Assembly (NCBI RefSeq): GCF_000337735.1 | Contig: NZ_AOHX01000047.1 | Coordinates: 1 to 64,000 of the forward strand | Direction of reading: 5' to 3' | DNA length: 64,000 nucleotides | Source of the DNA: Natronorubrum sulfidifaciens JCM 14089 | Lineage (GTDB): Archaea > Halobacteriota > Halobacteria > Halobacteriales > Natrialbaceae | Shown here: positions 59,263 to 63,728 of the stretch, in pieces | How the letters are laid out: each line of letters begins with the position of its first letter | How positions within the stretch are numbered: position 1 is the first letter of the stretch | The notes under the pieces: generated by a model | What the model was told of the DNA's origin: nothing | Database searches by the model: none | Seen by the model: the letters and a program-made list of their open reading frames with translations, nothing else | Program-made: the position numbers and the translations under genes

Positions 59263-61089
59263 TCAGTGCTCGCTGCGCGATGCGAACAGGGCGGCAACGA
59301 GTATTGCCACGAGGGCGACGCCGACGCCGAGTCCGGGCATCGAATCATCTGCTTCGTCGTCGCCAGTCACCGTCATCGCCGGCTCATCGGTGGACGTGTT
59401 GTCATCGGCCGACCCGTCGTCGGGCTCGGTCGCCGTCTCGTTGTTGGCGGTCGCCTTGTCCTTGCTTTTGTCCGTCTTCGCTGGTCCGTCCGCTGGTTTC
59501 TTGGCGTCGCCGTCCGTGCCGTCTGCAGGCGATGTCTCGTCGTTCGTCCCGTCGCCGGTGTCGCTTTCGTCTCCCGTGTCGCCGCTGCCCGGCGTTGCGA
59601 TCGTCGGCTCAGCGTCGGCGAACTGGACGTTCCTGTTCTCTTGCATCGTGATCTGTGAGGCATCGGCACTGCCGTTGTCTTCGGCGATTGCAAGCGCGGT
59701 CTGCTGTTGATTGAGGTTCTCCTGTGTCACGAACTGGGTGTGCTCGAGGTCGGCGATCCAGTACTGGTCGCCGTCAATCTGTTGTTCGTTCTCGCCGTCG
59801 TAATCGAACGACAGCAGCGAGCTGCCGTTGATATCGTTCCCACCGATCGTCACCGTCGTTTCGTTGGTAATCACGGCTCCGGCTTCGGGGTCGAACGAGT
59901 CACCGAGGTGTTCCACACTTGCGACACCGACCTGTTCGTTGTAGTTCCGTTGTTCAGCCAGCTGAATGGCCGTCGCATCGCTTTGATTGAGCGCGATCGC
60001 CACAGCCGCGCTCTGTAAATTCACGTTCACCTGCTCTGTGTTCTGGTACTGGCTCACACTGACTTCTGGCTCCTCGCTGTCGTGGGTGACCCCACCGTTC
60101 CCGTCCGTCGTCATGACGCTGTTGTCCTCAACCGCCGCAGTGGCGACGTTCATCCCCGACATCGCCTCGAGCAGCGAGACCGTCTCGGTCGATGCAAGCT
60201 GTTCGTTGAGGTTGGTCTGGTCGGTGATCTGGATCGCTGTCGCGACGGAGCCGTTACCGACCGCGATGGCGACTGCCATCCCCTGTTGGTTCTGGTTCGC
60301 CTGCACAACCTCCTGTGACTGCTCGACAGTCGCCTCCGTCGACTGGCCATCGGGGCCGACGTCGCCAGTCTCGTGGAGCGTCGTCGTTCCCTGCTGTCGG
60401 TTCTGGTTGGCCTGTGTCGATCGCTGGTACGCCACGGCCTCGCTTGCGCCTTCAGCGATTGCGACGGCGATGCTCTGGTCGTTGTAATTGACCTGCTCGA
60501 CGTCCTGATCTTGTGTGGTCGACGCCTCGGTCGGCTGTGAGACGTCCTGCACGGCGTCGCCGTCCGTCTGGTCAGCGACACTCCACCCATCGAACTCCTG
60601 TCTGTCGCCGTTTCCGAAGACGATGTGTACGTCGCCGACGTTTTCGAAGACGAGATCCTCGGATGTAGCCAGCGTGTTTTCGGCGGTTGCCTCACCGACC
60701 TGACTGTTCGCGTTCTGTTGATTCGCCTCCTGAATCGCCGTCGCCTCACCCCCATCGATCGCGATGGAGATCGCCCCACCTTGCTGGTTGAAATCGACCT
60801 GCTCGACGTCCTGATACTGGACGACGTCGGCGATCTCTTCCCGGTCGGTAATCGGGTCGGGTGCATCCGCCAGCTGCGTCTCGATGAACTCATCAAGCGA
60901 CTGATTCTCGAGTTCTGCACCGAACACGAAGTAGAGGTCTTCGCCGTGCTCGAGTGTCTGCACCGTGTCCGCCGTCGAACCCGATTCAGAGTCGATGTCG
61001 ATCGTGTCTGCAGGAGCCGCTGCGCCGGTCATCGAAAAGACAACCATCGCGGCGACGAGCAGTATCGTGAGCTGTGAGCGTCTGAGCAT
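59263..61089 (-). CDS. Secreted Q/N-repeat (curlin-like) protein with PGF-CTERM-like anchor
   Basis: 608-aa secreted protein. Signal peptide about 1-25 (LTILLVAAMVVFSMTGAAA). Five units of about 38-41 residues lie at 91-130, 193-233, 257-297, 347-386 and 452-489. Each follows a pattern of Gln/Asn spaced by two, then alternating Ala/Ile, a short Gly/Asp turn, Ala-Ile-Gln, and again Gln-x-Asn-x-Asn (for example EQVNYNDQSIAVAIAEGASE). This is like curlin repeats but longer. A Thr/Asp/Lys stalk (about 495-580) leads to a C-terminal PGLGVGVALVAILVAALF plus basic tail, like the PGF-CTERM signal for archaeosortase. Fibre function is inferred. Confidence 0.82.
   Translation of the reverse strand: MLRRSQLTILLVAAMVVFSMTGAAAPADTIDIDSESGSTADTVQTLEHGEDLYFVFGAELENQSLDEFIETQLADAPDPITDREEIADVVQYQDVEQVDFNQQGGAISIAIDGGEATAIQEANQQNANSQVGEATAENTLATSEDLVFENVGDVHIVFGNGDRQEFDGWSVADQTDGDAVQDVSQPTEASTTQDQDVEQVNYNDQSIAVAIAEGASEAVAYQRSTQANQNRQQGTTTLHETGDVGPDGQSTEATVEQSQEVVQANQNQQGMAVAIAVGNGSVATAIQITDQTNLNEQLASTETVSLLEAMSGMNVATAAVEDNSVMTTDGNGGVTHDSEEPEVSVSQYQNTEQVNVNLQSAAVAIALNQSDATAIQLAEQRNYNEQVGVASVEHLGDSFDPEAGAVITNETTVTIGGNDINGSSLLSFDYDGENEQQIDGDQYWIADLEHTQFVTQENLNQQQTALAIAEDNGSADASQITMQENRNVQFADAEPTIATPGSGDTGDESDTGDGTNDETSPADGTDGDAKKPADGPAKTDKSKDKATANNETATEPDDGSADDNTSTDEPAMTVTGDDEADDSMPGLGVGVALVAILVAALFASRSEH
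59623..60819 (-). repeat. Five curlin-like protein repeat units
   Basis: Coding positions of the repeats: unit 1 at 60819-60700, unit 2 at 60513-60391, unit 3 at 60321-60199, unit 4 at 60051-59932 and unit 5 at 59736-59623. Spacers of about 24-65 residues separate them. Units 1-4 are closest; unit 5 is shortest and most diverged. Confidence 0.75.
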
Positions 61090-61720
61090 CGCTATCAGTC
61101 TCCGGATTTGAAAATCGCTGGTGAGTGTCCCCGTTGCCTGACTATCATCGTTTCAAACCAGTAGTTTCCGAACACTGTCTTTGTTATCTGGTAGTTACGA
61201 GAACGAAGCAGTCGGCTACTCGGACAACAACTACCCCTCGAGCGGAGTGCGCTCGGCTGGAGCGAACGCGGTCCAAACCCCTATGACCCGCGGATACGAT
61301 CGGGAAGGGGGTGACGTGACCGGGGTGGAACGGTTCAGCGATCTCGAGTGTCTCTCGTAGGGGATGGTTTCGGAAGTGGTTCACAGAAACGACAGTCAGG
61401 AATCGAGGACTCCTTCGAGTCAGTTCATAAATATCGGCGACTGCAGCGGGGCCTCCAGTACGGCAAGTCAACAGTCGTCACTCGCTCACGGTTCCGTATC
61501 AAACTCGTACAGACGAGTGTCTCATTCGCTGTATTGTTGTTTTGTCGGCCTGAGATCGGCCAACTTCGAATTTGAGTCGAAACTGTTCCCGGGGTTCATA
61601 TTCATCTCCGGGGTGGCTACCAACCGGGCAGCGTGACACAGACGCGACGTCGGCACCGTCGATGAGACGATGGCCACTGTGACGCTGACACGTGTGCCCG
61701 ACACGCGATAGACGATACAC
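61090..61720. other. Long divergent intergenic region, 631 bp
   Basis: This separates the curlin-like gene (minus) from the small secreted protein gene (plus). Frames open here have no acidic composition or start signals and are rejected. AT-rich stretches lie at about 61140-61200 and 61545-61610 (TTCATATTCAT near 61600). Its length is unusual for this compact window and suggests complex control of both genes. Confidence 0.55.
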
Positions 61721-62155
61721 ATGAAACGCGCACTCTCACTCGCACTGACGGTCGCACTGATCGGCAGCCTCGTCTTTATGGGGTTCGCTGGAACAGCTGC
61801 TGCAGACGCTACGATCGAGAACAACGCTGACGTCACGCAAGACACGAACGCGGAGACGGACCAGGACCAGGAGTCCGAACAGGACGCTGAACAAGACGCC
61901 AAAAACTACCAGAACCAAGACGCTGACCAGGCCAACACTGCGTGGTTAGGCGATAACATCGCACTGTCCGTCCACGGTGACGCAGAAGCGGAAAACGAGG
62001 TTGACCAAGAGAACGACCTCGACCAGCGACAGGACGCTGACATCGACCAGGACATCGACCAGGACAACGAGCAGGACCAAGACGCTGACACCGAAGCCGA
62101 AAGCGAGTTCGAGCAGGAGTTCGAACTGCAGGACTTCATCAACTTCGGCTTCTAA
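61721..62155 (+). CDS. Small secreted Asp/Gln-rich protein with one curlin-like unit
   Basis: 144-aa protein. Signal peptide about 1-28 (LALTVALIGSLVFMGFAGTA, cleavage after AAA). The mature part is very rich in Asp, Gln, Glu and Asn. Residues about 64-104 (QNQDADQANTAWLGDNIALS, then VHGDAEAENEVDQENDLDQR) line up with the repeats of the neighbouring 608-aa protein. The rest is degenerate DQ/DID repeats and an aromatic end DFINFGF. There is no anchor, so it should be released or assemble outside the cell. A major-subunit or nucleator role beside the anchored protein is inferred. Confidence 0.75.
   Translation: MKRALSLALTVALIGSLVFMGFAGTAAADATIENNADVTQDTNAETDQDQESEQDAEQDAKNYQNQDADQANTAWLGDNIALSVHGDAEAENEVDQENDLDQRQDADIDQDIDQDNEQDQDADTEAESEFEQEFELQDFINFGF
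61853..61900 (+). repeat. 48-bp tract shared in inverted orientation, copy A
   Basis: Encodes ETDQDQESEQDAEQDA (residues 45-60) of the small secreted protein. It is nearly identical, with about six differences, to 62714-62667 on the minus strand. Confidence 0.75.
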
Positions 62156-62231
62156 CACCGCTGACGTAGCACTGCCGCAGCACCGATTTTCACCGCATAT
62201 TTTGCGTCACTGACCTCGCGTTCAGCAGTGA

Positions 62232-62492
62232 TACGGCTCGTTTCTCACCAGTGACGACGTTCGTTTCGACCTCGGCCGCCCCTCGCAGCGCCCTCGAGTC
62301 GTTGGTGATCACGAACTGAACGACAGCCTCGAGTTCGCTCGACTGATTGCAAGCCAGCAGCAGACGGCACTATCGCTGGTCGATCGAAGCGTCGGGAAAA
62401 ATAAACGAGTCTCGTCCGAACTGATTCAGTGGCTCTGCCACCACTGGCAGTCACTGCACACCCCACAAGACGGCCCTGTGAAGGATGTGTGA
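62232..62492 (+). pseudogene. Possible gene remnant without start codon
   Basis: The frame is open from 62232 (after a TGA at 62229-62231) to a TGA at 62490-62492, with no ATG, GTG or TTG start in its first two-thirds. Its translation includes DDVRFDLGRPSQRPRVVGDH and VSSELIQWLCHHWQSLHTPQ, with fair acidic and GC3 character. It may be the 3' remains of a gene lost from between the two secreted-protein genes. I do not recognise a family. Confidence 0.25.
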
Positions 62493-62522
62493 GTCGTGTT
62501 AGTTGGTGTTCGCTTCAGCGGC

Positions 62523-63728
62523 TCAGTTCTGGCGGCGGAGTGCCAGCATGGCGGCGGCGAGCATCGCGACGAGGGCGACGCCGACACCGAAGCCTGGCAG
62601 TCCGTCTTCGTCTTCGTTATCCGAGGCGACGTTTTCTTGCTCAGAGTCCTGCTCCTGCTCGTTCGACGCGTCCTGCTCAGCGTCCTGTTCGGACTCCTGG
62701 CTCTGGTCCGTCTCCGAGTCCGTGTCCTGGTCGCCATCGCCGTCGTTCGAGACGCCGTCATCGTCTTCGGCGCCGTTGTCTCCGTTCGCGTCGTCTTTGT
62801 CGTCCTCCTTGTCGTCGTCTTTCTTGTCGTCGTAGTCTTTGTCAGCCTTCTTCTCGTAGTCCTTTCCGTCTTTCTTGTCGTCTTTCTTATCGTCGTAGTC
62901 CTTGTCGCCTTTCTTCTCGTAGTCCTTCTCGTCTTTCTTGTCGTCGTCCGTTTCGTCAGTTTCGTCGTCTTTCTTATCGTCGTCTTTCTCGTCAGTCTCG
63001 TCCGTCTCATCGCCGTCGTCCATACCGGGCGTCACGGTGGCCGAATCGGCGATCGTGACGAATCCGTCAGCCTCGTCGTAGTAGGCCTGAATCGGTTCGC
63101 CATCGAGGTAGACCGTTGCCGTAACGACGGTCTCCGTCTCGATCGTCGACGTATCGATACTGACGTCGTTGTTCACACCGGTCAGTCCGGTTGCGGTGCC
63201 GAGTTCGTTATCGTCCGCGTCGGTGAGGACGACGTCGAACTCGGTGTCGTCACCGTGTCCATCGAGCAGCGCGGCGACATCAACGTTCACCTGGTCGATC
63301 GGGTCATCCGCCGACTGGTCGCTCATCTCGATACCGGCACCGTACACCGTCGCGGTGGCGGATGCTTTGGTGTCAGATTTGCTGTCATCCGCGTAGACGG
63401 TTGCCGTGTACTGTCCCGGCTTCTCGCTTGGCACGTAGACCGCAGCGTTCGTAAGGTCTCCGTCGAGTTCGGTTTCGAACACGACCTCACCGCTTTCGTG
63501 TTCAATCTCGAGGTACTGTCCCTCGTGGGCGGTGACGGATTCGACGACGAAGGCCGTGTCACCGTCGTTCATCCCGAGAGCTTGGTCAGTAAACGTTACG
63601 TCTTCGTCACCGTGGTTTGCCGCCGCTGCGCCCGCAAACGCTGCGGACATGGCAATGACGGACAGCACCATCAGTCCGGCTAACAGTACTGCACGTCCTT
63701 TCTGGAGCGTCGTTGGATTGCTTGTCAT
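62523..63728 (-). CDS. PGF-CTERM surface protein with lysine-rich tandem repeat
   Basis: 401-aa secreted protein. Signal peptide about 1-37 (LLAGLMVLSVIAMSAAFAGA). Residues about 40-130 form a beta-rich domain of the DUF7282/surface-glycoprotein kind (FTDQALGMNDGDTAFVVESV), and about 130-235 a second beta domain. Residues 240-312 are Asp/Lys-rich, with a 21-residue unit repeated at 268-288 and 289-309 (KDYEKKGDKDYDDKKDDKKD). A Gln/Glu/Asp stretch (339-365) follows, then the anchor PGFGVGVALVAMLAAAMLA and RRQ, a classical PGF-CTERM signal cut by archaeosortase A. It is a cell-surface protein. Confidence 0.85.
   Translation of the reverse strand: MTSNPTTLQKGRAVLLAGLMVLSVIAMSAAFAGAAAANHGDEDVTFTDQALGMNDGDTAFVVESVTAHEGQYLEIEHESGEVVFETELDGDLTNAAVYVPSEKPGQYTATVYADDSKSDTKASATATVYGAGIEMSDQSADDPIDQVNVDVAALLDGHGDDTEFDVVLTDADDNELGTATGLTGVNNDVSIDTSTIETETVVTATVYLDGEPIQAYYDEADGFVTIADSATVTPGMDDGDETDETDEKDDDKKDDETDETDDDKKDEKDYEKKGDKDYDDKKDDKKDGKDYEKKADKDYDDKKDDDKEDDKDDANGDNGAEDDDGVSNDGDGDQDTDSETDQSQESEQDAEQDASNEQEQDSEQENVASDNEDEDGLPGFGVGVALVAMLAAAMLALRRQN
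62667..62714 (-). repeat. 48-bp tract shared in inverted orientation, copy B
   Basis: Encodes ETDQSQESEQDAEQDA (residues 339-354) of the PGF-CTERM protein. It matches 61853-61900 of the small secreted protein gene almost base for base, in opposite orientation, about 0.8 kb apart. Confidence 0.75.
62802..62927 (-). repeat. Two 63-bp tandem coding repeats
   Basis: Unit 1 is 62927-62865 and unit 2 is 62864-62802. Both encode a 21-aa block starting KDYEKK and containing DKDYDDKKDD. Near-identity suggests recent slippage or unequal crossing-over, so repeat number may vary between strains. Confidence 0.8.

Follow-up and report, generated by a model that had tools for sequence, protein, structure and literature searches.

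Within a 64,000-nucleotide stretch of DNA from the archaeon Natronorubrum sulfidifaciens JCM 14089 (assembly GCF_000337735.1, contig NZ_AOHX01000047.1, positions 1 to 64,000; hereafter the window), we focused on two divergent neighbouring genes that encode proteins with a common type of glutamine- and asparagine-rich unit. The larger protein, P0001, runs from an N-terminal signal sequence through five such units and a linker to a PGF-CTERM anchor, and is present in a single copy in the window genome. The smaller, P0002, has a signal peptide, one unit and no anchor. An original prediction, made from the letters alone, had joined both to a third protein, P0003, as a candidate locus for curlin-like fibres. 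The open reading frames (ORFs) of all three were confirmed with their coordinates unchanged. Pairwise ratios of nonsynonymous to synonymous substitution rates (dN/dS) against congeners were 0.17-0.47 for the three genes, indicating purifying selection, and we therefore conclude that all three are translated. In P0001, 15.5% of residues are glutamine or asparagine, and in P0002 19.4%; the median over 50 called genes of the window is 4.25%. The signal sequences read in both proteins and the PGF-CTERM of P0001 suggest that the pair may be secreted to the cell surface. The features of the pair are given below, with bit scores from a unit hidden Markov model (HMM) whose training units included those of P0001 itself.

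59263..61089, minus strand: P0001, 608-residue secreted five-unit protein with glutamine/asparagine ladders (ORF, homologue family, dN/dS about 0.28-0.30)
61012..61089, minus strand: P0001 N-terminal signal sequence, about 26 residues (read from the sequence; kept in the homologue alignment)
60676..60831, minus strand: P0001 unit 1, residues 87-138 (70.0 bits)
60379..60525, minus strand: P0001 unit 2, residues 189-237 (57.0 bits)
60181..60333, minus strand: P0001 unit 3, residues 253-303 (59.2 bits)
59914..60060, minus strand: P0001 unit 4, residues 344-392 (65.2 bits)
59605..59754, minus strand: P0001 unit 5, residues 446-495 (69.9 bits)
59275..59349, minus strand: P0001 PGF-CTERM anchor, residues 581-605 (TIGR04126, 32.8 bits, E-value 3.8e-8)
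61721..62155, plus strand: P0002, 144-residue secreted small partner with one unit (ORF, family, linkage)
61721..61804, plus strand: P0002 signal peptide (alignment; conserved throughout the small-protein family)
61907..62038, plus strand: P0002 single glutamine/asparagine unit, residues 63-106 (8.2 bits)
61090..61720, no strand: intergenic region between the divergent large and small genes (conserved blocks in an alignment with four relatives)

In P0001 a half-motif, in the loose form Q-x3-Q-x-[N/D]-x-N-x-[Q/E], occurs ten times (at residues 93, 120, 195, 222, 259, 287, 349, 376, 452 and 479), so that every unit holds a pair of copies spaced by 27 or 28 residues. In 5000 composition-preserving shuffles of P0001, the mean number of half-motifs was 0.013 and the maximum was 1. 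The unit profile likewise found exactly five matches, scoring 57-70 bits each. Identity between units was 0.41 in register and only 0.04-0.17 when they were offset by 1-8 residues. An offset of 27 residues brings the first and second half of a unit into match (identity 0.28), which gives each unit the look of an internal duplication. The consensus of the whole unit is A-x-V-x-Q-x-Q-x-V-x-Q-x-N-x-N-x-Q-x-x-A-x-A-I-A-x-(turn)-A-x-A-x-Q-x3-Q-x-N-x-N-x-Q-x-G-x-A-x-A-x-N. In the profile, conserved positions strictly alternate with variable ones, the pattern of beta strands that are conserved on a single face, and nearly all of the 59 columns that are invariant across 47 large-protein sequences are glutamine, asparagine, alanine or glycine, on one face per strand. 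The P0001 family shares with functional amyloids in general a series of units whose ladder-forming residues lie on the same face. Much of the anatomy that the original prediction had proposed was borne out, including the five ladder units and the PGF-CTERM-like end of the 608-residue protein and the lone unit and missing anchor of the 144-residue one. Its unit length of about 40 residues has to be revised to about 52.

Five full units were found in all 52 distinct large-protein homologues, and in four of these a sixth match was only weak and partial or an extra half unit (L132). The unit length of about 52 residues is near-fixed throughout, linkers range from 10 to 82 residues, and lysine accounts for 0.3% of unit residues. 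Outside the units, the N terminus and a segment after unit 1 with an FDGW motif are conserved. The chain stops 3-9 residues past unit 5 in 38 of the 52 homologues; a PGF-CTERM-like end was recognised by pattern match in seven, from Natronorubrum and the Natrinema/Haloterrigena group. A soluble subunit paired with an anchored nucleator, the scheme first suggested, is therefore a feature of a lineage and not a defining one. Searches of Pfam, NCBIfam and PHROGs for curlin and other known domains gave nothing meaningful beyond PGF-CTERM and the signal of P0003. A match to PhoQ, the only one of the family profile among PDB sequences, was judged to be due to chance.

To describe the distribution of the family, we sampled genomes at three depths. 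Among 100 relatives, strong homologues of P0001 (E-value below 1e-20) were present in 47 of 61 genomes of its own family, the window genome counted, and in two genomes of the order outside it. Across 394 genomes of the order, 87 had matches, some with two or three copies, and these were confined to the same family, two further ones (f17 and f14) and one genome of another (f4). In 295 genomes of the phylum, matches fell only within its own family. Named carriers are Natrialbaceae (Natronorubrum, Natrinema, Natrialba, Haloterrigena, Halovivax, Natronococcus and others) and Haladaptatus. Nine plasmid records, all haloarchaeal, carry homologues labelled "hypothetical protein" or "PGF-CTERM sorting domain-containing protein" and add Halomicrococcus to the carriers; phage records contained none. 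Natronorubrum bangense has a large gene with two small genes both on its chromosome and on an 828-kb plasmid (L092, L093), with identical match statistics for the two copies.

The small gene is linked to the large one well beyond the window. At 37 or more of 48 named loci, one to four small genes precede the large gene in divergent orientation, a count from a crude filter that missed one locus found separately (L116). Start-to-start distances between the divergent genes are mostly 0.5-1.1 kb. Of the remaining loci, some end near a contig edge, and most of the others come from a sister clade that is divergent and has twin-arginine-like signals. Within the family of the window genome, a small gene was detectable in 38 of the 47 sampled genomes that have a strong P0001 homologue, compared with none of the 14 lacking one (Fisher p 3.6e-8, uncorrected for shared ancestry and overstating independence because the sampled genomes are related; two of the 14 are incomplete). 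Three genomes (G005, G026 and G057) have neither gene, while fellow members of their genera have both. The survey of haloarchaea suggested with the original prediction therefore found the two genes together, as it had expected.

The small proteins share a near-identical signal peptide, MKRxLxxxLTVALxGSLxFMGFAGTAAA, and their mature parts diverge fast. The mature P0002 is strongly acidic (D 20.7%, E 13.8%). To ask whether they contain the unit, we used an HMM trained only on the units of large proteins, which recognised one unit in 44 of 81 small proteins at 10 bits or more, compared with 2 of 1620 shuffles; the best scored 49.6 bits. Scores of at least 8 bits, the range of the P0002 unit, arose in 3 of 1620 small-protein shuffles. 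Matches of P0002 to MSCRAMM Sdr/Clf proteins reflected low-complexity D/E/Q sequence far under the cut-offs and were rejected. In several Natrinema small proteins (L098, L112, L113, L114 and the second small gene of L120), a domain of immunoglobulin-like size lies between two glutamine/asparagine strands. The window genome has an orphan paralogue of P0002, 76% identical, on contig C61 (L065, 5143-5577) with no P0001 homologue adjoining, and its congeners likewise have a second copy. The match on chromosome 2 of Haladaptatus halobius (L131) did not yield an intact large gene, and beside it remains the small gene with the highest unit score, 49.6 bits. The intergenic region between P0001 and P0002 contains conserved non-coding blocks, among them one around CTCGTACAGACGAG that includes an inverted repeat.

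We predicted the structure of P0001 (residues 30-500) with AlphaFold2 from 47 sequences. The cores of units 2-5 reached a predicted local distance difference test score (pLDDT) of roughly 80-89, and the mean over the model was 60. Most of each unit was modelled as a pair of strands, each about 25 residues long, with a turn of 3-5 residues between them; in units 1-3 a short kink interrupts the first strand. The predicted long strands agree with the paired-strand units first proposed for P0001, and the same check on P0002 was uninformative. A Foldseek search of the P0001 model against the PDB (350,542 chains) and viral structures gave no significant match. The top two PDB chains were the amyloid proteins FapC (9u4u, E-value 0.12, TM-score 0.08) and CsgA (E-value 1.5, TM-score 0.05), and TM-scores this low hint at no more than a local resemblance to either.

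Taken together, we propose that the large five-unit protein and its single-unit small partners form an extracellular amyloid-like fibre or matrix, to which we give a probability of roughly 0.55. P0001 would found a haloarchaeal family of secreted five-unit proteins, in which a unit would be two long beta strands and a short turn, the invariant glutamine, asparagine and alanine facing one way and the variable residues the opposite way. Once secreted, each chain would stack its five units in register into a five-layer cross-beta block, whose layers would be held by hydrogen-bonded ladders of glutamine and asparagine side chains. The acidic linkers of variable length would loop out and, with the variable faces, contact the hypersaline surroundings. 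The open ends of the block could then template further chains and single-unit partners, and end-to-end stacking would build the fibre or matrix. The conserved large protein may serve as backbone or template, and the fast-evolving small proteins as variable co-subunits or caps. In the lineage of the window, PGF-CTERM processing would tether the large protein, and hence the structure, to the cell membrane. The data show the anatomy of the sequences, their fixed unit number, secretion signals and shared unit, the linkage and co-occurrence of the genes and the purifying selection on them; the long strands are a prediction, and in-register stacking, polymerisation, co-assembly and biological role are inferred.

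Several observations weigh against this proposal. The predicted template-modelling score (pTM) of the P0001 model is 0.54, unit 1 is weaker than the others, and the predicted strands fit stacked arches or a flat antiparallel hairpin sheet alike. None of the Foldseek matches was significant, even the best. The unit of P0002 itself scores weakly, its AlphaFold2 model is poor (mean pLDDT 49), and none of the genes seen next to the pair looked like a dedicated helper for assembly or secretion.

The best-supported competing explanation is that P0001 does not polymerise and is instead an elongated surface adhesin or an S-layer-associated protein with a finite beta-stack or sheet as spacer, the small proteins being ligands or competitors. 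A unit number fixed at five, unlike that of CsgA, is what a finite structure predicts; some members have a PGF-CTERM anchor, and the conserved N-terminal and FDGW segments could be functional modules. However, the 38 homologues that end shortly past unit 5 have no anchor and leave an edge strand open, stand-alone single-unit proteins are hard to account for if the stack is closed, and FapC, a proven amyloid, is likewise fixed in repeat number (PMC12392863). We consider an adhesin unlikely on balance.

The comparison with FapC can be taken further. In 94% of cases the FapC chain contains three repeats; their length is fixed, the linkers vary, and a conserved network of asparagine and glutamine shapes the cross-beta layer (PMC12392863). 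The FapB/FapC proteins of Pseudomonas resemble P0001 and P0002 in being secreted, in their imperfect repeats of fixed number and length, variable linkers and conserved Asn/Gln array, and in being two repeat-bearing proteins encoded together. They differ in that FapC has three repeats of 38-39 residues, whereas P0001 has five of about 52 and P0002 a single unit, and in place of the FapC motif each unit of P0001 has two copies of Q-x3-Q-x-N-x-N-x-Q. The Fap motif NQQxN was absent from P0001 and averaged 0.29 per homologue, and the family profile gave no sequence match to FapC chains in the PDB. Outer-membrane machinery of the kind used by Fap is not expected in an archaeon. No fapABCDEF operon partners were evident in the gene neighbourhoods, where no profile search for them was made. 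By analogy, the design of P0001 resembles FapC more closely than curli in its fixed repeat number, variable linkers and conserved Asn/Gln. We do not claim Fap membership, because the motif differs and the profile has no FapC match.

A second competing explanation keeps the large protein as the assembling unit and makes the small proteins its regulators, as caps or chaperone-like inhibitors, rather than co-subunits. One unit would suit one end of a stack, and both the acidity of mature P0002 and the rapid divergence behind a conserved signal peptide are in keeping with such a role. Up to four small paralogues at a locus and the extra domain inserted in some of them suggest displayed subunits instead, and we rate regulation as less likely still than an adhesin.

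Kinship with curli, as the original prediction suggested, is very improbable. Like CsgA and CsgB, P0001 and P0002 place glutamine and asparagine at regular ladder positions and are paired subunits with internal repeats, here a large and a small secreted protein, and CsgA ranked second in Foldseek. At the level of sequence, however, membership of P0001 failed every test. None of 29 homologues matched the Pfam curlin repeat (PF07012) at an E-value of 10 or less, nor did any protein of the window genome. As positive controls, the profile found its targets in E. coli and in other haloarchaea, and the haloarchaeal matches show that the test has power. The minimal curli motif is X6QXGX2NX10 in units of about 22 residues (PMC3521004). 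Its core, QxGxxN, is absent from P0001 and averages 0.81 per homologue compared with 0.33 by chance, whereas CsgA and CsgB have five each. The unit profile had no similarity to CsgA or CsgB, and a profile-profile alignment with curlin repeats covered one column. The unit of P0001 is more than twice as long as that of curli. On a beta-solenoid with one rung per about 22 residues, as in curli, the predicted strands of about 25 residues and the Foldseek match to CsgA bear neither way. The absence of a visible CsgG-like helper, noted at the outset, held in a search of the window genome with PF03783 (no match at an E-value of 1 or less); CsgE and CsgF were not evident in the neighbourhood, and no profile search for either was made.

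Proteins with curlin repeats do occur among haloarchaea. They passed the Curlin_rpt cut-off in 5 of 394 genomes (G036, G056, G347, G389 and G183), and one archaeal protein with curli-like repeats was mentioned by Dueholm et al. (PMC3521004). Examples at L145 (1300-2037, minus strand), L146 (994-1617, plus strand) and L169 (7420-8463, minus strand) have repeats of about 19 residues, such as NNDADVDQRNKAFVDQDGK. Like P0001 they are secreted, Gln/Asn-rich and archaeal, but they carry the curli motif, lie at a separate locus and have no detectable similarity to the units of P0001.

That P0001, P0002 and their relatives are disordered, water- and salt-binding Q/N/D-rich matrix proteins is equally improbable, for although the small proteins are low-complexity and acidic and the P0002 model has low confidence, divergent homologues keep invariant alternating positions and long strands are predicted.

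Another archaeal system comparable with the fibre or matrix that we favour is the sheath protein SH of Methanospirillum hungatei, which is also extracellular; each monomer has six beta-arches, and these stack to form large sheets that resemble amyloid (PMC10593813). Compared by description only, SH differs from P0001 in its helical cap domain and in forming rings around the cell (PMC10593813). More tentatively, and with somewhat less confidence than in the fibre or matrix as such, we suggest a new, archaea-specific functional-amyloid system unrelated to curli or Fap. In it, a five-layer template of long-strand beta-arches would let rapidly diversifying single-unit subunits polymerise into haloarchaeal matrix fibres, some displaying a domain inserted in the arch turn.

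Haloarchaeal biofilms are reported to stain for amyloid without a confirmed gene (PMC4180959). In the literature we found such evidence for Haloferax volcanii only, whose matrix contains Congo red- and thioflavin-positive putative amyloid from a protein not identified (PMC4180959). The P0001 family is unlikely to be its source because the order survey, in which Haloferax was not searched by name, had matches in four families only. The locus offers a defined candidate, conserved and mostly single-copy in a large culturable family. A small partner family and a sharp sequence rule, five units and ten Q-x3-Q-x-N-x-N-x-Q half-motifs, make it amenable to deletion and staining. Should fibres form, Gln/Asn-ladder amyloids would appear to have arisen in archaea independently of curli and Fap.

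The third gene of the original prediction lies beside the pair:

62523..63728, minus strand: P0003, 401 residues (ORF)

In P0003 a haloarchaeal surface-glycoprotein signal is accompanied by a PGF-CTERM (TIGR04126 above the cut-off). Three Q/N/D-rich secreted neighbours had been expected, which is true of P0001 and P0002; the mature P0003 contains 4.1% glutamine and 3.8% asparagine and is D/E/K-rich, save for one segment. That segment, a Q/D/E-rich stretch of 92 nucleotides shared by P0002 (61838-61929) and P0003 (62638-62729) at 80% DNA identity, suggests exchange between the neighbouring genes. A counterpart of P0003 stands beside the pair in two congeners. We rejected it as a general third member of the system because no counterpart accompanies the pair outside the genus at the loci examined in detail, and P0003 is probably an independent surface protein. 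Past P0003, as read from their sequences, the genes resemble glmS, a sugar nucleotidyltransferase and sugar-nucleotide enzymes.

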